From positions 1-64,000 of the forward strand of contig JAJZLU010000002.1 of the NCBI GenBank assembly GCA_021850545.1: a stretch of 64,000 bases of DNA, given 5' to 3'. Below are positions 8,868 through 52,144 of the stretch, in pieces. The position numbers and the translations under genes are program-made. This DNA is from Thermoplasmata archaeon. Its GTDB lineage: Archaea; Thermoplasmatota; Thermoplasmata; Thermoplasmatales; Thermoplasmataceae. Below the pieces are notes generated by a model. The model ran no database searches. It saw nothing but the letters and a program-made list of their open reading frames with translations, and was not told where the DNA came from. The first letter of the stretch is position 1, and every line of letters starts with the position of its first letter.

Positions 8868-9446
8868 TCAAAGGAGATCTCCAAGGTCCCTGTTGAAAGG
8901 CTGTTCAAGCCAGTAGGTCATGAAAACATCATCCACATATTTTCCATCGATCACAAACTGGCCCTTTCTGGCACCTTCCACTACAAACCCCATGCTCTCG
9001 TAAAGCGCGATAGCATTGGTATTGGTTGAAAAGACCTCAAGATTGAGCTTTTTCACATAGTTCTCCCTGCACCACTCGACCCCAGAAGATATGAGCTTTT
9101 TTCCAAGGCCCTTCCTCCTGTGGCCTGATTTAATTGCAATCCCAAGGTTTGCAGTGTGGCGGTTCTTTCTATACATGCCCCTCTGGATTGTCAAGACCCC
9201 AACAATTTCTGAATCCTTCTCTGCCACGACCGTGAGGTCATCAGGGCTCCGGATTCTCTCCTGTTCTCCTCTCTCTGTTAAAAGGTAATACTCGCTGACC
9301 AGGAAGACCCTCTCGTCCATCACGCTCTGCATGCAGTTTATGACTCCTTTGGCATCCTTGGGCTCAGCCCGCCTTATTAAATATTCGCCAAAAACTGTTT
9401 CTTCAGGGCTTTTACCTTTCCAGAGCATGAAAACACTACTTTCCAC
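8868..9446 (-). CDS. GNAT-family N-acetyltransferase
   Basis: 192 aa. The acetyl-CoA binding motif A appears as LGIAIKSGHRRKGLGKKLI (~97-115), with the R-R-K-G-L-G pyrophosphate loop. Motif B follows at NAIALYESMGFVVEG (~144-158). The layout matches RimI/PhnO-like acetyltransferases, which acetylate amines on small molecules or protein N-termini. The acceptor is unknown. M7 (9428) is an alternative start. It lies 61 bp downstream of the winged-helix regulator on the same strand, so they may be co-transcribed. Confidence 0.85.
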   Translation of the reverse strand: MESSVFMLWKGKSPEETVFGEYLIRRAEPKDAKGVINCMQSVMDERVFLVSEYYLLTERGEQERIRSPDDLTVVAEKDSEIVGVLTIQRGMYRKNRHTANLGIAIKSGHRRKGLGKKLISSGVEWCRENYVKKLNLEVFSTNTNAIALYESMGFVVEGARKGQFVIDGKYVDDVFMTYWLEQPFNRDLGDLL

Positions 9447-9507
9447 TTAAAGAGTAAGTAGACATAATCCTTTCCCCTTCAATCGCGAAATAGTGCGCGC
9501 AATGCCA

Positions 9508-9834
9508 CTATTTCTTCACAAGGGAACTCTTTAGGTCGTGGTACATTTCTGTCATCTGCTCAGCAAGCTTTCTTGCCTCGTCAGCAATCTTTTCCTTGTT
9601 GTCTAAGAACTCAGGAGTCAGAATCGCTCCTTCTCTGGATGGGAGAATAAGCCCTTCCTTTTCAAGAACCCTCAGGGAATATCTGATCTTGTGCTCAGGA
9701 ATTCCAGTTTCGTGTGATATCTTTATGATCCCTACGGGTTGCTCACGCAGCAATGTCTGAATTATAGAAAGATGCCTCTTCACCGTTTCCAGATCAGTTT
9801 TTATCTCCCTGAACAATGAATTTGAATTTTCCAT
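9508..9834 (-). CDS. Winged-helix transcriptional regulator
   Basis: 108 aa. After a helical lead (~1-22), residues ~23-75 form a winged helix-turn-helix: IIQTLLREQPVGIIKISHE is helix 1 to helix 2, IPEHKIRYSLRVLEKEGLI the recognition helix, and LPSREGAILTPE the wing. A charged helical C-terminus (~78-108) could mediate dimerisation. The target is unknown. A GGTGTC element 3-8 bp before ATG 9834 and an AT-rich TATA-like box at 9850-9868 support the start. The downstream GNAT gene is a plausible operon partner. Confidence 0.75.
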   Translation of the reverse strand: MENSNSLFREIKTDLETVKRHLSIIQTLLREQPVGIIKISHETGIPEHKIRYSLRVLEKEGLILPSREGAILTPEFLDNKEKIADEARKLAEQMTEMYHDLKSSLVKK

Positions 9835-9849
9835 GACACCTAATGGCTA

Positions 9850-9868
9850 TCAATAATATATTTATTAT
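9850..9868 (-). promoter_or_regulatory. TATA box of the winged-helix regulator gene
   Basis: The minus strand reads ATAAATATATTA about 20-30 bp before ATG 9834, which is appropriate archaeal promoter spacing for a very short leader. Confidence 0.45.
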
Positions 9869-9910
9869 CGGAGCATAAACAAAGTCTTTCTCTTTATCAC
9901 AGAATTGCCA

Positions 9911-10150
9911 TTAAGGAAAGAGTTCCTCGCCATTTTCTGTTATGGTCGGGTCTTCAGTGCAGTTGAGTAGAATCCTGATCTTTTCCTCTCTTTCATGTAT
10001 GTATTGTTTGAACTTTTCCTTGTCATCGTAATGTTCCATGATATTGATGGCATTTTTCCTTAGGGAGATCTGGAGCTTTATGTCAAAGCGCATTCTTTCC
10101 GTTAACTGAGAAAGTTCGATCCTTTGGGGCAACAGTAAAGTGAACCCCAA
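9911..10150 (-). CDS. Small hypothetical protein
   Basis: 79 aa from a TTG start at 10150, or 60 aa from ATG 10093 (MRFDIKLQIS), which is perhaps the better start. It is charged and helical (HYDDKEKFKQYIHEREEKIRIL), has no recognised domain and no membrane segment, and ends in an acidic tail. It shares direction with the regulator and the GNAT, 76 bp upstream of the former. A 10-bp palindrome ATACATGTAT (10195-10204) lies upstream and might be an operator or the core of its promoter. Coding status is uncertain. Confidence 0.45.
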   Translation of the reverse strand: MGFTLLLPQRIELSQLTERMRFDIKLQISLRKNAINIMEHYDDKEKFKQYIHEREEKIRILLNCTEDPTITENGEELFP

Positions 10151-10254: not shown

Positions 10255-10420
10255 GAAGATATGAGATGTTATGAGGTGCCTACCACATCTCATTTACTCA
10301 TTTTTCAGCTTTATGGAATAGTATTTCAAAAATATGCAGTAAACAGGGATGTGCCATCTTTCCCACATCCCTGGAAATCGACCTGAGATTCATGAGGCAG
10401 GTCTGACTGAGATGGCATAC
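10255..10420 (+). ncRNA. Hairpin-rich leader or small RNA upstream of rtcB (candidate)
   Basis: The 353-bp gap 10151-10503 has no convincing ORF but is structured. Hairpin 1: ATGAGATGT (10261-10269) pairs with 10285-10293. Hairpin 2: CAGGGATGTG (10344-10353) pairs with 10364-10373, ten perfect pairs around a 10-nt loop. Hairpin 3: GACCTG (10380-10385) pairs with 10398-10403. TGCCATCT (10352-10359), mostly the loop of hairpin 2, is perfectly complementary to AGATGGCA (10410-10417), allowing a pseudoknot or an alternative fold. A TATA-like GTATATCATA (10201-10210) could start an RNA near 10235. It could be the 5' leader of rtcB or an independent RNA. No known RNA family is recognised. Confidence 0.4.
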
Positions 10421-10503: not shown

Positions 10504-11940
10504 ATGCCGGAAATCAAAGTCACAGAGATTGACAATTACACTTACATGATAGATAAGTCGCACGATAGCCGCATGAATGTGCCTGGCATCATTTACTCTA
10601 GTCCGGCCATGATGGAGGACATCAGGAATGACCAGTCACTGCAGCAGGTCGTGAATGTGGCCATGCTTCCAGGTATCGTCAGGGCTTCCATGGCCATGCC
10701 AGACATCCACTGGGGGTATGGTTTTCCGATTGGCGGGGTGGCGGCATTTGATTCTGAAGAAGGAATTGTGTCACCCGGGGGAGTCGGCTACGACATTAAC
10801 TGTGGTGTGTCGCTTGCGCGCACCAATCTTACATTTGAGGAAATAAAGCCCAAGATCCGGGAACTGACCGACCTTCTTTTCAGCAAAGTACCCTCTGGCA
10901 TGGGAAGCACCAGCACCAAGGTAACAGAAGGCGACCTCGACGCCATACTTTCCACTGGTGTCCAATGGTGCGTCGACAGGGGAATGGCCACAAATGATGA
11001 TCTCAGGTTAACAGAAGAGAATGGTGCCCTGAAGGACAACAGGCCAAGAAATGTCTCCCCTGAAGCAAGGAAAAGAGGGCTAAAGCAAATTGGGACACTG
11101 GGGGCTGGAAATCATTTCCTGGAAATACAGAGGACCGACAGCATTTTTGACCAGGAGATTGCAAGGTATTTCGGAATCAAGGGCACAGACCAGATAACAG
11201 TGATGGTGCACACCGGCTCTAGAGGACTAGGGCACCAGGTAGCGACAGATTTCATAAGGAAGTTGAATACACTTGGGGAAGGAGTAATTTCACATCCTGT
11301 AGACAGGCAGCTTACTTCTGCTAAAATTCAATCCGACATAGGGAGTGCATATCTGGGTGCAATGAATTCGGCTGCAAATTATGGGTTTGTCAACAGGCAG
11401 GTAATCATTCACAACGTAAGGGAAGCTTTCCATGAGATCTTCCCCGATTCTGAGGTAAAGCTTGTTTACAGCTTGGCGCACAACATGGCCAAGATGGAGA
11501 GGCATCGCGTGAATGGGGATGAGAGAAAGCTTCTGGTTCATAGAAAAGGCGCCACTAGAGCTTTCCCGGGTTACTTCTTCAAAGAGGACAGCTTTTTCCG
11601 AATGTTTGGCCATCCTGTGCTTATACCGGGAGATATGGGGACTGCATCTTATGTTCTCGTGGGAAAGGAGGGCAATGACCAGAAGTCGTTCTCTTCAAGC
11701 TGCCATGGGGCAGGTAGAAAATTGAGCAGGACAAAATCAATTGAAGCATTCAAGAGCAAGGAAGTCGTTTCAAAACTTGAATCTAAGGGCATTTACCTTC
11801 GTGCACAGAATGTCAGGGTAATTTCTGAGGAAGCTCCTGGAAGCTACAAGGACATTGATGAAGTGATTTCTTCCGTCACGGGTGCTGGTCTCACAATCCC
11901 TGTAGCACGCCTTACTCCACTTGGCGTTGTGAAGGGATAA
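10504..11940 (+). CDS. rtcB: RNA-splicing ligase RtcB
   Basis: 478 aa, full length. It has the RtcB metal-site residues in order: C100 (GGVGYDINCGV), H204 (GAGNHFLE), H236 (VMVHTGSRG), H326 (YSLAHNMAK) and H401 (SSCHGAGR). The last is the histidine that carries GMP in Pyrococcus RtcB. It joins 2',3'-cyclic-phosphate and 5'-OH RNA ends in a GTP- and Mn-dependent reaction and so seals tRNA halves after intron removal. The first 30 residues (DNYTYMIDKSHDSRMNVPG) align with the normal N-terminus, supporting ATG 10504. It is monocistronic, and the structured region just upstream is noteworthy given its substrate. Confidence 0.95.
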   Translation: MPEIKVTEIDNYTYMIDKSHDSRMNVPGIIYSSPAMMEDIRNDQSLQQVVNVAMLPGIVRASMAMPDIHWGYGFPIGGVAAFDSEEGIVSPGGVGYDINCGVSLARTNLTFEEIKPKIRELTDLLFSKVPSGMGSTSTKVTEGDLDAILSTGVQWCVDRGMATNDDLRLTEENGALKDNRPRNVSPEARKRGLKQIGTLGAGNHFLEIQRTDSIFDQEIARYFGIKGTDQITVMVHTGSRGLGHQVATDFIRKLNTLGEGVISHPVDRQLTSAKIQSDIGSAYLGAMNSAANYGFVNRQVIIHNVREAFHEIFPDSEVKLVYSLAHNMAKMERHRVNGDERKLLVHRKGATRAFPGYFFKEDSFFRMFGHPVLIPGDMGTASYVLVGKEGNDQKSFSSSCHGAGRKLSRTKSIEAFKSKEVVSKLESKGIYLRAQNVRVISEEAPGSYKDIDEVISSVTGAGLTIPVARLTPLGVVKG

Positions 11941-20069: not shown

Positions 20070-20130
20070 ACCTTCACCATATTACGCAAATTCTCATTTT
20101 CTCATTTATCCGGCGAGCAGTTCCCCTTAA

Positions 20131-20143
20131 TATCCATTTATAA
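20131..20143 (+). promoter_or_regulatory. TATA box of the PolB2 operon
   Basis: CATTTATAAAATC is centred ~20 bp before ATG 20158. It is the only promoter-like element for the three overlapping genes that follow and predicts a leaderless transcript. Confidence 0.5.
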
Positions 20144-20157
20144 AATCCAACAGACCT

Positions 20158-20622
20158 ATGCGCGGAACTCTCAGGATATTCAGGACGCCAAAATTCAGCA
20201 TTGAGGGCCTGGAAGAGTTCATCAGGATTTCGCTGAAAAGCTACGGGGAAGTGCATTTTCTACTGACGGACGGAATAATGCTCAATTTCAGGGACATCCT
20301 TTCTCCGGAGATCATGCCAATGGTCATGGTCCAGAGAATCCTGACCTCATACCAGCTCCAGAAAATACTTATGGATTCTGATCAGAACCCTTGCTACATT
20401 TCTGCCACATCCTCTGTAATTGAGGCCTGGCCTTCATCTATTGTTGAAAGCATATATGATATCCTGAAGATCAAGACACAATACCACGGCGCAATAGTAT
20501 TCCTCAACATCGTGGGTCATGGCGGGGTTTTTGAGAAGTATCTTGGAAACAGGGTTCTGTCTCGCAACAGTGTGGAGGACAGGGGAGGTTTGTATTCATG
20601 GGAAGAACAGTTCCAACAGTAA
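20158..20622 (+). CDS. Hypothetical protein, first gene of the PolB2 operon
   Basis: 154 aa, unrecognised. It alternates predicted helices and strands: SIEGLEEFIRISLKSYG (helix), VHFLLTDGIML (strand), VQRILTSYQLQKIL (helix), NPCYISATSS (strand), SSIVESIYDILKI (helix), GAIVFLNIVGHGG (strand). This is an alpha/beta protein with no Walker motif. The pattern could be a RecA-fold fragment without ATP site, but this is speculative. It overlaps the 81-aa gene by 25 bp, and that overlaps the polymerase gene by 8 bp, so the three are almost certainly co-translated. Its job is therefore inferred to lie with the polymerase. Confidence 0.7.
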   Translation: MRGTLRIFRTPKFSIEGLEEFIRISLKSYGEVHFLLTDGIMLNFRDILSPEIMPMVMVQRILTSYQLQKILMDSDQNPCYISATSSVIEAWPSSIVESIYDILKIKTQYHGAIVFLNIVGHGGVFEKYLGNRVLSRNSVEDRGGLYSWEEQFQQ

Positions 20623-20843
20623 GGCAGAGCATGGAAGCACTGTCAGCAAAGCTGCAGAAGATGTCGCAGATAATGGGCTCTGGAGATGCGGAACTCCTGA
20701 ACTCCATTCTCATCAAGGGAAGGAGGCATGCACACGAGGTATCATACTCAGACATGGAAGTGGGTTATGGCTTCCTGATATCAATCATCATTGAACTGGA
20801 GAGGGAGATACGTGAACTGAAGGCAGAGAAGTCACATGAATGA
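20598..20843 (+). CDS. Small helical protein, second gene of the PolB2 operon
   Basis: 81 aa, unrecognised. It is mostly helical: TVRQSMEALSAKLQKMSQIM and DAELLNSILIKGRRHAHEV form an amphipathic N-terminal half, and IIIELEREIRELKAEKSHE is a coiled-coil-like C-terminus. It overlaps the upstream gene (25 bp) and the polymerase gene (8 bp), so translational coupling is likely. The small size and coiled coil suggest an adaptor binding the polymerase or a partner. No DNA-binding motif is evident. Confidence 0.7.
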   Translation: MGRTVPTVRQSMEALSAKLQKMSQIMGSGDAELLNSILIKGRRHAHEVSYSDMEVGYGFLISIIIELEREIRELKAEKSHE

Positions 20844-22848
20844 TGTTATTGTCAATGCCACTGGGAGCGATTTTATCCGGTTATGGTACCTCAGGGGCAA
20901 CCGCATCCAGTTCAGGAGGTTCAGGAACCGCTCATGGATGTTCGTGTCAGGAACTCCGTACGACCTGGATTTCCTTGCACGCCAGCTGGACGATTCTGGC
21001 CGTTATGAATACATGGAAGCCACGGGGAACAACGTTTATGGTTCTGTGGAAGGCATCAGAATTGAGGTTAACCCATCAGGCATCAGTGATCTGGTGACGG
21101 CAATTGAGAACATAGGGCTTGGGAGGAAATACAGCATCTACAATGCCGACATCAACCCAGTCCTCAGGTTCATGTCTGAGCGCAGCCTCAGATTTTTCCA
21201 GCTTCCATCCCCTGAAGACCATGATCCGGAAATCCCGCATGTTTACATTGGGGGGAAGTCACGCCTTGGAACGCCGGTTGAGGTGAGCATAGGCAACAGG
21301 AAATACCACAGCCTCAATTCATCATTCCTTGAGGATCTCCATGAAGCAATCACGCAAAACATCATTGTCATATACAACAACCGTGACAGGCTATTCGAGA
21401 AACTCCTCATGCTTCTTTCGTCAAACGGATACAACATTGGCGCATCAAGGGGGAAAAGTGGAAGCACATACCAGTCTTACGGGCAGGTTTACTACAGCAA
21501 CCCGAGGGTATGGCTCACCAACAGGATTGCAATCGAGGCGGATTCATTCACATACTCCGAAGCAGGATTGCCCGGCCTGATCCAGATGTCACGCATTTCT
21601 TCCCTCCCCATGGTAACGGCATCAACGGTGACCGCTGGAACCGCAGTGTCATCAATGGAGGAATCCCATGCCCTGAGGAGCCAGATCCTCATTCCGCTTT
21701 ACAAGGATGACCATGAGCAGGCCAAACCGTCTGATATCCTCATGGAGACTGACAAAGGAGGCATGGTGCTGCAGCCTGATCCGGGAATATACACGGATGT
21801 TTATGAGATAGACTTCTCATCCATGTATCCCAGCATAATGGTGAACTACAACCTTTCACCAGAAACCATAGGCATGGATGGGGATTTCCAGGTGCCCGGG
21901 CTTCCCTACAGGATCAGCACGCAAAAGCGTGGCTTCCTTTCAATGGCCCTGGAGGAGCTTCTCAGGACAAGGCTGTTCTACAAATCCATAAAATCGAGGG
22001 ATGTTGTGTATGAGCAGAGGGATGCAGCCCTGAAATGGATGCTTCTCACATCATTTGGATACACTGGGTACAAGAATGCAAAGTTTGGGAAGATCGAGGT
22101 CCATGAATCGATTACGGCGCTTGGCAGGTGGGCGCTGTCAAGGGCAATATCCCTCTCCATAAAGCATGGGTTCCAGCCAATACATGGAATCGTGGATTCC
22201 CTCTGGATAAAGGGAAGCGGCGACATCAATGCCCTTCTCAGGGACATTGAGAAGGAAACAAGAATCGGAATAGTAGTGGATGGACATTACAGGTGGATCG
22301 CATTCATGCCAGCCAGATCCGGCCTAGGAGCCCTGAACAGGTATGTTGGCCTCCGGGACGATGGAACATTCAAGGTCAGGGGCATAGAGGCAAGGAGATC
22401 AGATGTTCCTGAGATATGTGTTGACTTCCAGATGGATGCCCTCAACATCCTCAGGGACTGCACTTCGCCGGAGAATATATGGGGAAAAAGGGAGTTCATA
22501 AGGCAGCTTGAAAGGGCATACATGAAGGAGCTCCCCCTTAAGCCGAGGGAAAATTTCAGGGTTGGCATCCACATAACACGGAAAAGGGAAGAGTACAGGG
22601 TCAACAACATCCAGAAGAAGCTTCTCCAGGCATCTGAAAATATTGGCTATTCAATCAATCCCGGAGACCGTGTCGGGGCAATAATCGTGAACAAGGGGCA
22701 GGGCAAGATTGACCTCGGGGATGAATACAGCGGCGTGGACATCCAGTACTACAGGAGAATCCTGGAACGCTCATTCGAGCCAATGGATTTCATACTGTCA
22801 TCATGCGCACCGGCAACCAGCCAGGTTACTCTGTCTACTTTCTCCTGA
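20836..22848 (+). CDS. PolB2-like B-family DNA polymerase (divergent, exonuclease-less)
   Basis: 670 aa. Motif A is intact: YEIDFSSMYPSIM (D326). Motif B is KWMLLTSFGYTGYKNAKFG (K400; the usual Asn is Thr). Motif C is IHGIVDSLWI: the DTDS core has become IVDS, keeping only the second, catalytic Asp (D454). The ~300-residue N-terminal part lacks a recognisable DxE exonuclease motif, and the whole is shorter than replicative PolB (~780 aa). Archaeal PolB2 proteins have such degenerate motifs, and the Sulfolobus member Dpo2 serves error-prone damage tolerance (established knowledge). It is third in an overlapping operon, and its end overlaps the convergent Orc1/Cdc6 gene by 14 bp. Assignment to PolB2 rather than another divergent PolB is likely but not proven. 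Confidence 0.82.
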   Translation: MNDVIVNATGSDFIRLWYLRGNRIQFRRFRNRSWMFVSGTPYDLDFLARQLDDSGRYEYMEATGNNVYGSVEGIRIEVNPSGISDLVTAIENIGLGRKYSIYNADINPVLRFMSERSLRFFQLPSPEDHDPEIPHVYIGGKSRLGTPVEVSIGNRKYHSLNSSFLEDLHEAITQNIIVIYNNRDRLFEKLLMLLSSNGYNIGASRGKSGSTYQSYGQVYYSNPRVWLTNRIAIEADSFTYSEAGLPGLIQMSRISSLPMVTASTVTAGTAVSSMEESHALRSQILIPLYKDDHEQAKPSDILMETDKGGMVLQPDPGIYTDVYEIDFSSMYPSIMVNYNLSPETIGMDGDFQVPGLPYRISTQKRGFLSMALEELLRTRLFYKSIKSRDVVYEQRDAALKWMLLTSFGYTGYKNAKFGKIEVHESITALGRWALSRAISLSIKHGFQPIHGIVDSLWIKGSGDINALLRDIEKETRIGIVVDGHYRWIAFMPARSGLGALNRYVGLRDDGTFKVRGIEARRSDVPEICVDFQMDALNILRDCTSPENIWGKREFIRQLERAYMKELPLKPRENFRVGIHITRKREEYRVNNIQKKLLQASENIGYSINPGDRVGAIIVNKGQGKIDLGDEYSGVDIQYYRRILERSFEPMDFILSSCAPATSQVTLSTFS

Positions 22849-23947
22849 ACATCTGCATGACCTTTTCTTCAAGGGCTGCAACCGGCACATCATTAATTCC
22901 GATCATCTTGGAAACGCCCTTTCGGTCTCCGCGGCCAACAACCTTTCCTTCCACGATGCCTATGTCCTCAAGGCGTTTTATTATCCTGTATACCATGGAA
23001 TCTGCGCCAATTTCGAGGGAATACTGCTCAGCCACGACCCTGGATTCCCTGATCACGCAGGCCATCTCAGTGCTGGACTCGTCCTTGAGGCACCTGCATA
23101 CAGAAAGTAGAACGCCAAGTTCCTCAGGCTCAAGCTCCCCGAGCTTGCTCTCAGTAACATAAGGGTTGATCATGGAACTGGCAGCCCTGATATCCTCACT
23201 CTCCAGCTTCTCCCCGTCCCTGTACTGGCACACGTAGGCTGATTTCTGGAGAAGCTCAATGGCGACCCTTGCGCTGCCAAATGGTTCTGCAACATCGCTG
23301 ATATATTCAAGGGACGAGTCTTCAAAGGTTCCCTGTTCGAGGGCTATTCTTGCCCTTTCCTTGAGAATCTCCAGTAGCTCATCACGCGAATATCTGTTGA
23401 AATGAATTGTAGAAAAGACTCCAAGAGACTTCTTGTCCCGCTCGGTCATGTAAATGGACGGGTCTTCCATGGAAACAAGAATGCAGGAGACTGGGGCACC
23501 ATAAACCTCGTTTGCCCTGAGAAGGTTGTATAGGCCATCCTTGTCGAACTTGATGAGGTTTGTGGCCTCATCAACAATAATGACAATATTCCTTCCCCGC
23601 TCCTCGCTTACCTTTTTCATTGCCCTGAAAATCTCCGCGAATGACAGGTTCTTTGTGCCTGTGACCCTCCCCATCCTGGCCAGCGAATCCAGCATAAGTG
23701 CCCTGAGGCTGCTGAATGAAAGTGCATTCTGGTAAACCATGAAGAATTTCTTCTCCTCCCTGCTCAGATAACGCATTGTGGAAGTCTTGCCGGTTCCTGA
23801 GTCACCAAAGGAAAGGAGGTTTGATGATATGCCTGCCTTAAGCGGCTCCAGCATTATTCTTCTGATGTTATCTATCTGCTTCTCCCTGAACCTGAGTTTC
23901 TGTGGCACGTAAGAAAAATCCAGGGGATCGGGGTTTTTGATGATCAA
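22835..23947 (-). CDS. cdc6: Orc1/Cdc6 family AAA+ protein (probable non-origin paralogue)
   Basis: 370 aa. The N-terminus FSYVPQKLRFREKQIDNI is typical of archaeal Orc1/Cdc6. Walker A GDSGTGKT (~48-55), Walker B VIIVDEAT (~122-129) and sensor 2 in EPFGSARVAIELL (~222-234) define the AAA+ module. A C-terminal winged helix (~285-370) follows. Such proteins bind origin boxes and load MCM, but paralogues such as Sulfolobus Orc1-2 act as DNA-damage transcription regulators (known). Only 38 bp separate it from the upstream radical SAM gene, and I see no AT-rich origin region or repeated ORB-like boxes nearby, which argues against an oriC-linked initiator. It is convergent with the PolB2 operon. 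Confidence 0.88.
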   Translation of the reverse strand: MIIKNPDPLDFSYVPQKLRFREKQIDNIRRIMLEPLKAGISSNLLSFGDSGTGKTSTMRYLSREEKKFFMVYQNALSFSSLRALMLDSLARMGRVTGTKNLSFAEIFRAMKKVSEERGRNIVIIVDEATNLIKFDKDGLYNLLRANEVYGAPVSCILVSMEDPSIYMTERDKKSLGVFSTIHFNRYSRDELLEILKERARIALEQGTFEDSSLEYISDVAEPFGSARVAIELLQKSAYVCQYRDGEKLESEDIRAASSMINPYVTESKLGELEPEELGVLLSVCRCLKDESSTEMACVIRESRVVAEQYSLEIGADSMVYRIIKRLEDIGIVEGKVVGRGDRKGVSKMIGINDVPVAALEEKVMQMFRRK

Positions 23948-23985: not shown

Positions 23986-25665
23986 TTAGGCGCCGCTCAA
24001 AGATGGGAGCGATGTGAACTCTTTCTTGTGCTCAATGCCCCATCTCTTGACTTTCTCTATGTCCACGCCATTCTTTGCTGCAAGCCTCTCCACGAACTTC
24101 ATCATCAGGTAGCCTCCGCCGGATATGATGCTTCCAGTTCCAATCCTTGCGAATACGTTGCCGGTGCTGTCCCTGAAGCCATCCCTTGAGGCCATCTTTG
24201 CAAGGTGCCGGTATGACGCGTAGTAAACTGCAAGCTTATCGGCATCAAGCAACCCAGTGTTGAGGTTCCTTGACTTGATCCTTCCTAGGGGAACATTGAC
24301 TAGTGGAGTAACTGTGAACTCAAACGGCCTCCCTACCGCAAAGGAGTTGCTGAGCCTGTTGATCATTGCAATGGTGTCCCACTCATCTTCTACAGTTTCC
24401 CCTTCCTGGCCGACCTGTATGGTGAATGCAGGCCTCCAGTAGTTGGATGTTTCGACGTACACACCTTTCCACACTATGTCCTCCCAGCTTCCATCCGGGC
24501 CAACCCTGAGCGGGAGAGTCTTGTTTGGCATGTGCCTTCTTGCAAGCTCATCGCTGCCTGTTTCAACTCCAGTCTGGATTCCAATCCAGTTTTTCGGGCC
24601 AGCCTTTAGGATCTTCGAGAGTTTTTCCATCATTTCAGGGTAACCTGCAGGAATTGATATCCTGCCATGGGTCGGGTTAGATGACTTTACACCCGGGACT
24701 GCCATTATTGCGCTGAAAAGTTCTTCGAGGGCCTCGCTGTTTGGCGCAAACATGTTCCCATGCTTGTATCCGAACGCCTCGTCTGAGTGGAGCCAGGCAT
24801 TTGGAAGGCCAGCCCGGACGTTGACCTTCACCTCGTTGGTTATCCTCTCCACAGAATTGTACCTGAGCGGCCTGAGTGTAACTTCACAGAAGTCGCATCC
24901 CACACCGCAACCCCTCATCATCTCCACCATTCCTTTCATTGCGGGCCCGACAATTTCAGGGATGTCCTCAAGCCTCGGATAGGCTGATTTGGTAATGCCC
25001 CTTGCAATGAAGAGGTCATCTTTTTTCACTACCTTCCTGAAACTGTCATCATAAGTCATGTATCCGCGGTGGAAGAGCGTGTTGTCAATGCTGTCTTCTG
25101 AAATCTGCTCAAAGAGCAGTTCCACGATATCGTCCGTCTCACCCTGCACAATGTAGTCAAACTTGTACTTGTCAATTTCTTCCCTCAGGATGGTGAATTC
25201 CCAGACACCGGGGCCGCCGACAACCAGCTTTGCCTTTTTGCCTGCCCTGAGCTTGTTTATCCTTTCCATAAGGGAATCCCACTCACGCCTGACCCAGGCA
25301 GACATTTCCCCTCCAAAAAGGGCATAATAAGACATTGTGGTTGGTCCTATTCCGAGCGGGTCCATGGTTGTAACTCCGATGATCTGCGTATCGTCAGTAA
25401 TGAAATTTTCGAGGTAATCTTCATGGGCAACAACTACGTCCTTTCTGTCGTACTTCCTGAGAAGCGCTGCCTCCAGCTTTCTCAGTGCATATGGCGCGAA
25501 TACTGCTGCACCATTTGGATGGACTGGGGGTGCAGGCCCCTTCAGGAATTTGTAAATTCTTCCGGGAACGGCTTTCCCTGGAGCGCATGGAAGAAAGTCA
25601 AGAAGTGGAAAATTCCTGTATTCATAGCTTAAAGTTGAATCTGATACTAATACTATTTTTGTCAT
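23986..25665 (-). CDS. B12-binding-domain radical SAM protein
   Basis: 559 aa. A Rossmann-like N-terminal region (~1-185) resembles the cobalamin-binding domain of COG1032 proteins (e.g. TDDTQIIGVTTMDPLGIGPTT ~90-110, KLVVGGPGVWEF ~146-157). The radical SAM motif is RGCGVGCDFCEV (C253, C257, C260). Then come IGIQTGVETGSDELARRHM and a C-terminal domain (~430-559). These enzymes often methylate or couple unactivated carbons; archaeal relatives include GDGT ring synthases acting on membrane lipids. A lipid role here is a guess. A strong ribosome binding site (GGAGG, 25675-25679) supports the start. It is directly upstream of the Orc1/Cdc6 gene on the same strand. Confidence 0.82.
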   Translation of the reverse strand: MTKIVLVSDSTLSYEYRNFPLLDFLPCAPGKAVPGRIYKFLKGPAPPVHPNGAAVFAPYALRKLEAALLRKYDRKDVVVAHEDYLENFITDDTQIIGVTTMDPLGIGPTTMSYYALFGGEMSAWVRREWDSLMERINKLRAGKKAKLVVGGPGVWEFTILREEIDKYKFDYIVQGETDDIVELLFEQISEDSIDNTLFHRGYMTYDDSFRKVVKKDDLFIARGITKSAYPRLEDIPEIVGPAMKGMVEMMRGCGVGCDFCEVTLRPLRYNSVERITNEVKVNVRAGLPNAWLHSDEAFGYKHGNMFAPNSEALEELFSAIMAVPGVKSSNPTHGRISIPAGYPEMMEKLSKILKAGPKNWIGIQTGVETGSDELARRHMPNKTLPLRVGPDGSWEDIVWKGVYVETSNYWRPAFTIQVGQEGETVEDEWDTIAMINRLSNSFAVGRPFEFTVTPLVNVPLGRIKSRNLNTGLLDADKLAVYYASYRHLAKMASRDGFRDSTGNVFARIGTGSIISGGGYLMMKFVERLAAKNGVDIEKVKRWGIEHKKEFTSLPSLSGA

Positions 25666-50775: not shown

Positions 50776-51178
50776 AATTTAATGAATTACCTTAATGTAT
50801 CCTTTTTAAAAACTGTTGCCCAAAAAAAGCCATGGTTGAAAGTATTTCTAATGTTCAAAAAAACTCATTTTCTCATTTTTCAGTGCAACCAGAAAGGATA
50901 TAGCTTGTATACAAATTGGATTGTTAACTAATTGCACAGCCCTTGGTGAAGGTCACTTTGATGCAAAAGGATTCAGTTCGGGGTATATTCCCTTAACTAG
51001 ATAATTTGTGCATTAAAGTATTATATTCACCTATTCAATTAGTAAATAAGCAACCCAAAAATATCAGATAAAATAGGAACTGGGCCATTAACGGCTTAGT
51101 TTCTTTGAATGTCTGGTACAAAGTTGGGCAACATTTCAATGGGCATGAACCAAAGAAATACTGAAGCAGGGTGTATAA
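50776..51178 (+). promoter_or_regulatory. 403-bp divergent intergenic region
   Basis: It separates the giant surface gene (minus) from radA (plus). A TATA-like TTTTTAAAAAGG (minus, 50797-50808) serves the former. AGTATTATATTCACC (about 51017-51031) is a candidate promoter for radA, leaving a long leader, and a purine-rich CAGGGTG sits just before the radA ATG. No ORF or stable hairpin is evident. Confidence 0.4.
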
Positions 51179-52144
51179 ATGGCAGGAAGCAAAGAAGAGA
51201 AGAAGATGACAATTGAGGATCTCCCGGGCGTGGGGGAAGCAACAGCAGAGAAGTTAAGAGAGAACGGACTGGATGACATTATGACCATTGCAGTTGCTTC
51301 TCCAAAGGATCTATCAGAGATGGCAGGCATAGCTGAGGGGACTGCGATAAAGATCATTGCCGCTGCCAGAAAGTCCGCTGATATAGGGAACTTCGAAACT
51401 GGAGAGCAGATCCTTGAAAGAAGGAAGGATGTCCTGAAGCTCAGCACCGGGAGCAAGAACCTAGACAATCTCCTTGGAGGAGGGTTTGAAACACAGGCGA
51501 TCACAGAATTCTTTGGTGAGTTTGGCTCTGGAAAGACCCAGATCATGCACCAGGCTGCAGTTAACGCAACACTTCCGCCTGAACAGGGCGGCTTTGATTC
51601 GGATGTCCTTATCATAGATACAGAGAATACCTTCAGGCCTGAAAGAATAATACAAATGTCCAAGTCAAGAGGGGCTGATCCCGACACAGTCTTGAAGAGA
51701 ATCCACGTTGCAAGGGCTTACAACTCACACCACCAGATTCTTCTGGCAGAGCGTGCCATTGAATTGGGAAAGGAGTTCCCAATCAAGCTGCTCATAGTAG
51801 ACTCACTCACATCCCATTTCAGGTCGGAGTACATGGGCAGGGGATCACTTTCAGAGAGGCAACAGCTTCTCAACAGGCACATGCACGATCTGCTCAAGTT
51901 CGCAACAATCTATAACGCAGTGATAGGGGTCACAAACCAGGTATCAGCAAGGCCAGACGTCTTCTTTGGCGATCCAACAGCCCCAATAGGAGGCAACATT
52001 GTAGGGCATACGGCCACATTCAGGATCTACCTGAGGAAGAGCAAGGGTGGAAAGAGAATCGCTAGGCTGATCGACTCTCCATATCTCCCAGAGGGCGAAA
52101 CTGTCATACAGATATCAGAAGACGGCGTTTCTGACGGAGTATAA
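51179..52144 (+). CDS. radA: DNA repair and recombination protein RadA
   Basis: 321 aa, normal length. The N-terminal helix-hairpin-helix domain (~10-70, [19 protein letters not shown]) binds DNA. Walker A is GEFGSGKT (~113-120), Walker [12 protein letters not shown] (~204-214), followed by [28 protein letters not shown] (L2 region) and DSPYLPEGE near the C-terminus are RadA/Rad51 features. It forms ATP-dependent filaments for strand exchange. It is followed 19 bp later by the ACT-domain gene, so an operon is likely. Confidence 0.96.

Follow-up and report, generated by a model that had tools for sequence, protein, structure and literature searches.

A shared promoter element of PolB2 operons paired with a convergent Orc1/Cdc6 paralogue, and its candidate damage regulon, in the Thermoplasma/Ferroplasma family

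An operon encoding the family-B polymerase PolB2, the small protein arCOG07300 and an inactive RadA is known, and in euryarchaea an arORC2 gene is present in many of its neighbourhoods (Makarova et al. 2014, PMC4104785). Timinskas et al. 2025 modelled the complex and named the two partner proteins PPB2 and iRadA, and the enrichment of polB2 neighbourhoods in orc1/cdc6 (archaea) and lexA (bacteria) was read as damage control (PMC11791011). In the Sulfolobales the PolB2 protein Dpo2 is a damage-inducible extender polymerase, and mutagenic translesion synthesis is known only there (PMC7390963, PMC8764526). Orc1-2 of Saccharolobus is a DNA-damage regulator that acts through ANTTTC, the DNA damage-responsive element (DDRE) (PMC9738581). 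Here we describe a PolB2 operon that lies tail to tail with an Orc1/Cdc6 gene in a 64,000-nt stretch of DNA from a Thermoplasmata archaeon (the window; positions are those of its forward strand, position 1 being the first letter). The pairing of PolB2 with Orc is not new, and the new part is a promoter element in front of the operon and the candidate regulon of this element. Also new are the family-wide conservation of the tail-to-tail arrangement, the co-occurrence of the two genes and the loss of initiator signatures from the Orc. We favour, with a probability of roughly 60%, the reading that this is a mutasome operon with its own regulated promoter and that the neighbouring non-initiator Orc acts as a damage regulator through the element.

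The PolB2 operon and its convergent Orc

A sequence-only reading of this stretch had described three overlapping genes ending 14 bp inside a convergent Orc1/Cdc6 gene, and the open reading frames (ORFs) were found in exactly this arrangement. It had named the PolB2-like gene correctly but left the genes for the proteins of 154 and 81 amino acids (aa) unrecognised, which are assigned here as iRadA and PPB2.

20158..20622, + strand: iRadA, inactive RadA/RecA-fold protein, 154 aa (predicted fold, no Walker A)
20598..20843, + strand: PPB2, arCOG07300-like small helical PolB2 partner, 81 aa (position in the operon, profile matches beside PolB2)
20836..22848, + strand: PolB2-type family-B polymerase, 670 aa (NF004416, motif alignment)
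22835..23947, - strand: predicted non-initiator Orc1/Cdc6 paralogue, 370 aa, TTG start (domain matches, tree, signature counts)
22835..22848, strand-less: tail-to-tail overlap of polB2 and orc, 14 bp (ORF ends)

Neighbouring genes of the operon overlap by 25 bp (iRadA/PPB2) and 8 bp (PPB2/PolB2). The polymerase scored 585 bits against NCBIfam NF004416 (cut-off 516). Motif A (DFSSMYPSIM) is intact, and motif C reads HGIVDS, in which the first Asp is lost and D454 is kept in the alignment; H450 and D454 are invariant across the alignment, giving the HxxxD form of motif C that marks the PolB2 type. The 154-aa protein had no Pfam match and no PDB sequence match. An AlphaFold2 model built from 37 orthologues (predicted local distance difference test 83, predicted TM score 0.79) gave the RadA filament 2zud (1.4e-4), RAD51 and RecA as top Foldseek matches and, given that no Walker A motif was found in the aligned sequences, these fold matches identify the protein as iRadA. 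PPB2 was assigned from its operon position and from a profile built here from the PPB2 of this family, not from the published arCOG model; by this profile the protein family adjoins PolB2 across the class, in methanogens and in Archaeoglobi. The order iRadA-PPB2-PolB2 was kept in all Thermoplasma/Ferroplasma-family loci where all three genes were seen, and the locus is almost certainly a PolB2 mutasome operon. It has the same three families as the Sulfolobales (Dpo2) system, the gene order of one published variant and the same loss of the first Asp from the PolC motif, and an Orc neighbour had already been reported for archaea (PMC4104785, PMC11791011). It differs in that iRadA is reduced to a 154-aa core and in that the Orc is convergent, with overlapping ends, across the family.

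Some variants of these proteins were also seen. Two PolB2 sequences of family f5 (L096, L097) carry an insert of ~180 residues immediately ahead of the FGYTGY motif that resembles an intein at its two ends (C first, HN last), and at locus L154 one ORF (9318-9977) is an apparent iRadA-PPB2 fusion. The C-terminus of PolB2 in the window, SQVTLSTFS (22800-22848), is similar to a PCNA-binding (PIP) motif, though an imperfect one, and is encoded by codons that extend into the orc overlap.

The co-location of the three genes with orc was searched for in related genomes and proved to be conserved throughout the family. PolB2 was widespread among 150 genomes of the class, and among the loci that were read a convergent Orc was confined to the Thermoplasma/Ferroplasma family, in which it was found at every PolB2 locus with flanking sequence (15 whole genomes and 34 further named contigs, the latter including a few of the same species). 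The ends of polB2 and orc overlapped by 14-84 bp in 13/15 whole genomes and 25/34 named contigs. Seen from the Orc side, PolB2 was convergent in 30/30 loci and overlapping in 28. The pairing is not due to chance. In the order, 21 genomes were scored for the two genes: 15 had both, 6 had neither and 0 were discordant, and one genus (g3) included three genomes with PolB2 and Orc and two with neither, which indicates gain or loss inside a single genus. Orc was present in 64/77 family genomes and in 31/35 of those of high quality. The host of the window is an uncultured member of this family, the closest named contig showing 87% PolB2 identity (Ferroplasma acidarmanus is represented by contig L162). 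In the sister clade (I-plasma and its kin) the PolB2 operon was without an adjacent Orc. In Archaeoglobus (L178/L179, 8066-9196) an Orc lies upstream of the PolB2 operon on the opposite strand; its placement in the same subfamily as the Thermoplasmatales Orc was unsupported, since it fell in another clade of the tree, and the PolB2-Orc pairing may therefore have arisen repeatedly.

The Orc of the window matched the domains Cdc6_lid, AAA and Cdc6_C and has the AAA+ ATPase, lid and C-terminal winged helix of the family. It keeps Walker A and B, and Walker A was found in 25/25 paired Orcs. None of these 25 had the RR recognition helix (27/37 in canonical Orc1), the GRYGRT-type wing (37/37) or the initiator-specific motif (ISM) P..G[WL] (33/37), so that neither the winged-helix residues contacting the origin recognition box nor the ISM of an origin-linked Orc1-1 were seen. 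In a quick tree search with support from the Shimodaira-Hasegawa-like approximate likelihood ratio test, in which several deep forks are open, long branches are present and Saccharolobus Orc1-2 was not among the sequences, the paired Orcs and the I-plasma Orc2 fell outside the clade of canonical Orc1, SsoOrc1-1 and ApeORC1. There was no grouping with origin-linked Orc1-1, a placement that the sequence-only reading had set against its own proposal. Judged from its sequence, the paired Orc is a non-initiator Orc1/Cdc6 paralogue. Neither a repeat cluster nor a GC-skew switch was seen at the PolB2-orc locus, which agrees, as weak evidence, with the earlier statement that no origin adjoins the gene. 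Like Saccharolobus Orc1-2, the paired Orc is without the initiator winged-helix signatures and keeps Walker A/B, a likeness in sequence features, whereas the ISM is degenerate in the paired Orc and needed by Orc1-2. The next gene upstream of orc, and on its strand, is B12-binding/radical-SAM-like (23986-25665); a similar gene end precedes orc in many relatives, and co-transcription with orc is possible.

The promoter element and its candidate regulon

The strongest evidence is a shared promoter element, which was absent from the sequence-only reading and of which we found no description in the published PolB2 mutasome work (PMC4104785, PMC11791011). The upstream regions of PolB2 operons have the 15-bp direct repeat TCAYTTNYTCATTTT in common, ~64 nt before the start codon. 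Motif search by expectation maximization (EM) gave TCATTTTCTCATTTT with a log-likelihood of 302, compared with 48-51 for shuffled sets.

20094..20108, + strand: promoter-distal direct-repeat element TCATTTTCTCATTTA (EM motif, orthologous operons, genome-wide recurrence)
20127..20134, + strand: likely TATA box CTTAATAT (read from the sequence)

In the window the half-sites are TCATTT with an 8-bp step, and the element lies 64 nt before the ATG at 20158. The sequence CTTAATAT stands at the TATA position, centred ~27 nt before the same ATG, and is kept in the nearest relatives; the operon transcript would be leaderless. When the operons were anchored on a conserved iRadA codon, the element reached at least 10 bits in 50/54 orthologous operons, and its distance varied little in nearly all of them; among background windows, true sites included, 2.2% scored this high. 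Among 50 PolB2 loci outside the Thermoplasmatales the element was absent but for one reaching 10 bits, 612 nt upstream. In the I-plasma clade, the PolB2 operon, the 60-78 aa protein family described below and TnpB are preceded by a form with three repeats, and only lineages with an Orc2-like protein have the element. Taken as a regulatory site, the element is very probably real. An element upstream of the PolB2 gene is common to this system and that of Orc1-2, and the half-site AYTT is compatible with ANTT; the element differs from the DDRE in being a direct repeat with an 8-bp step and in its other target genes.

Exact matches to the element were counted against a reversed-pattern control. 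In genome G000, YCAYTTNYTCATTTT had 6 sites compared with 0 for the control. The counts were 23 and 4 in 17 Orc-positive genomes and 46 and 2 in 15 further Orc-positive genomes, and there was no enrichment (4 and 5) in 6 Orc-negative genomes, which lack PolB2 too. Each genome had 0-13 exact sites. An ORF start was found 58-75 nt downstream at 45/69 distinct sites in Orc-positive genomes, compared with 14% for shifted positions and 0/4 sites in Orc-negative genomes; the spacing was almost always 59-64 or 69-70 nt and was conserved before non-transposon genes whose flanks are unrelated.

Beside the PolB2 operon, the targets include a protein family of 60-78 aa whose core is Y..GR(R/K)(D/E)Q...D and whose genes are often in tandem (L265, L267, L297, L319, L341, L403, L427). 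The family had no Pfam match, and the possibility that its members are PPB2 paralogues was rejected (hhalign probability 0.3%). A protein-profile search gave matches in 13/30 genomes and in 0/6 Orc-negative genomes; among the genomes searched the family was found only in those with an Orc2-like gene. In a blind check, the element was present 62-67 nt upstream in 4/6 of the homologue operons that were read (G148, G110 and two in G171) and absent from 2. Another target is a gene for a 67-82 aa protein (L273, L280, L331, L351, L352), including an 80-aa protein before ileS, and in both loci with the downstream gene read (L273, L280) the element-bearing gene lies directly before ileS. Further targets encode a 61-aa protein, an AbrB/MazE-like 55-aa protein and, in one genome (G148), the Nre DNA-repair protein. 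TnpB/IS605-type insertion sequences of two separate clades (L348, L349, L394, L409) also bear the element, placed 61-104 nt upstream of tnpB, which looks like the capture of a regulated promoter from the host. The element-bearing genes probably constitute a damage regulon, although this is less secure than the element itself, and the 60-78 aa proteins may be damage effectors.

The Orc as regulator and competing explanations

In the mechanism we favour, PolB2, held by PPB2 and iRadA, would extend distorted primer ends past lesions, an activity attributed to it here by analogy with the Sulfolobus homologues. The Orc, with its AAA+ ATP switch and diverged winged helix, would most likely be a transcription regulator. 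DNA damage would alter its nucleotide state, and the ATP form would engage the direct repeat ~20 bp upstream of the TATA box. Bound Orc would then activate leaderless transcription of the mutasome and of the accessory small genes, and hydrolysis would switch it off; activation is favoured because of the position of the element upstream of the TATA box. As a wider proposal, tentative and somewhat less probable than the reading of the locus itself, the Thermoplasmatales would have an SOS-like regulon in which Orc binds the box and switches on the PolB2 mutasome, the 60-78 aa proteins and lineage-specific repair genes, the box having been captured by TnpB.

Several observations weigh against this explanation. 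Both the damage induction of the operon and the role of Orc as element binder are inferred by us, and for the latter we see about even odds. PolB2, Orc and element are lost together, and the phyletic data therefore cannot single out Orc as the binder. Most orc promoters are without the element, unlike that of the autoregulated Orc1-2; it was seen at +62 in two near-identical contigs only (L141/L142), and autoregulation of orc was rejected as a general rule. The match to the Sulfolobus ANTTTC amounts to a few bases, and many of the genes in the regulon have no known role in repair. The I-plasma clade has its closest Orc2-like gene not next to polB2 but at a distance of 4-6 kb from orc1, and the tree groups this gene with the paired Orc at weak resolution.

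Rather unlikely, but the best of the alternatives, is that the element does serve as the operator for a regulon of damage or of another stress, with a different transcription factor bound to it, and that Orc partners the PolB2 complex directly, in remodelling or in loading at stalled forks. The element-free orc promoters and the locking of Orc to polB2, and not to the other regulon genes, would fit such a role, and a replication-linked role for the complex was proposed by Makarova 2014 (PMC4104785). However, the locus is linked to no further DNA-binding gene, the element is confined to lineages with an Orc2-like protein, and Orc1-2 is a precedent for a regulator. We know of no precedent for an Orc as polymerase partner. 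It is very improbable that conserved gene order alone keeps Orc beside polB2 and that the element is just a sequence of strong promoters in general or one carried by transposons: the TnpB insertion sequences of two clades do bear it, but the low number of exact sites per genome is no general promoter signal, the spacing is kept before unrelated non-transposon genes, and PolB2 and Orc are present or absent jointly even within one genus. An alternative initiator or origin modulator, with the PolB2 operon serving an alternative initiation pathway, would agree with Orc/Cdc6 family membership and with the position of the related I-plasma gene near orc1 and was raised by Makarova 2014 (PMC4104785), but is very improbable given the loss of all three initiator signatures in 25/25 paired Orcs, a locus marked by neither a repeat cluster nor a skew switch, and the dispensability of Orc, which is missing from 4/35 high-quality family genomes.

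The compact damage-tolerance module suggested from the sequence alone thus survives as the best reading, with an Orc that stands apart from Orc1-1, while its pairing and damage interpretation had already been published. Its comparison with the bacterial imuA-imuB-dnaE2 cassette holds as an analogy, in that this locus and the bacterial SOS (LexA) system both combine an error-prone polymerase with a RecA-fold partner that is inactive, and place them under a dedicated regulator, a putative one at this locus. It does not hold as a counterpart: the polymerase is of family B and not a C-family DnaE2, the regulator and small subunit are unrelated, and there is no Y-family-like ImuB. Bacterial polB2 operons adjoin lexA (PMC11791011), whereas there is no LexA at this locus. 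The regulator reading bears on whether euryarchaea run a dedicated SOS-like transcriptional damage response through Orc/Cdc6 as in Sulfolobus. For organisms in culture (Thermoplasma, Ferroplasma) the element supplies a putative binding site together with a list of targets and a candidate for the regulator, and it points to a small-protein family without database match as possible damage effectors.

Other exact sites in the window

Two further exact elements were found in the window.

50865..50879, + strand: second exact element TCATTTTCTCATTTT, 314 nt before radA (51179-52144, + strand)
10290..10304, + strand: third exact element TCATTTACTCATTTT, 214 nt before rtcB (10504-11940, + strand)

The element upstream of radA, at 310-314 nt, was kept in two sister species, and the other relatives that were read had none before this gene; radA was rejected as a conserved regulon member, the element being present only in the genus of the window. 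The flank of the element before rtcB (RtcB-family RNA ligase) resembles the end of an insertion sequence (aaacagggatgtgccat) and is common to the element-bearing TnpB insertion-sequence copies of a relative. This third element probably lies inside an insertion-sequence remnant, and rtcB is a doubtful regulon member.

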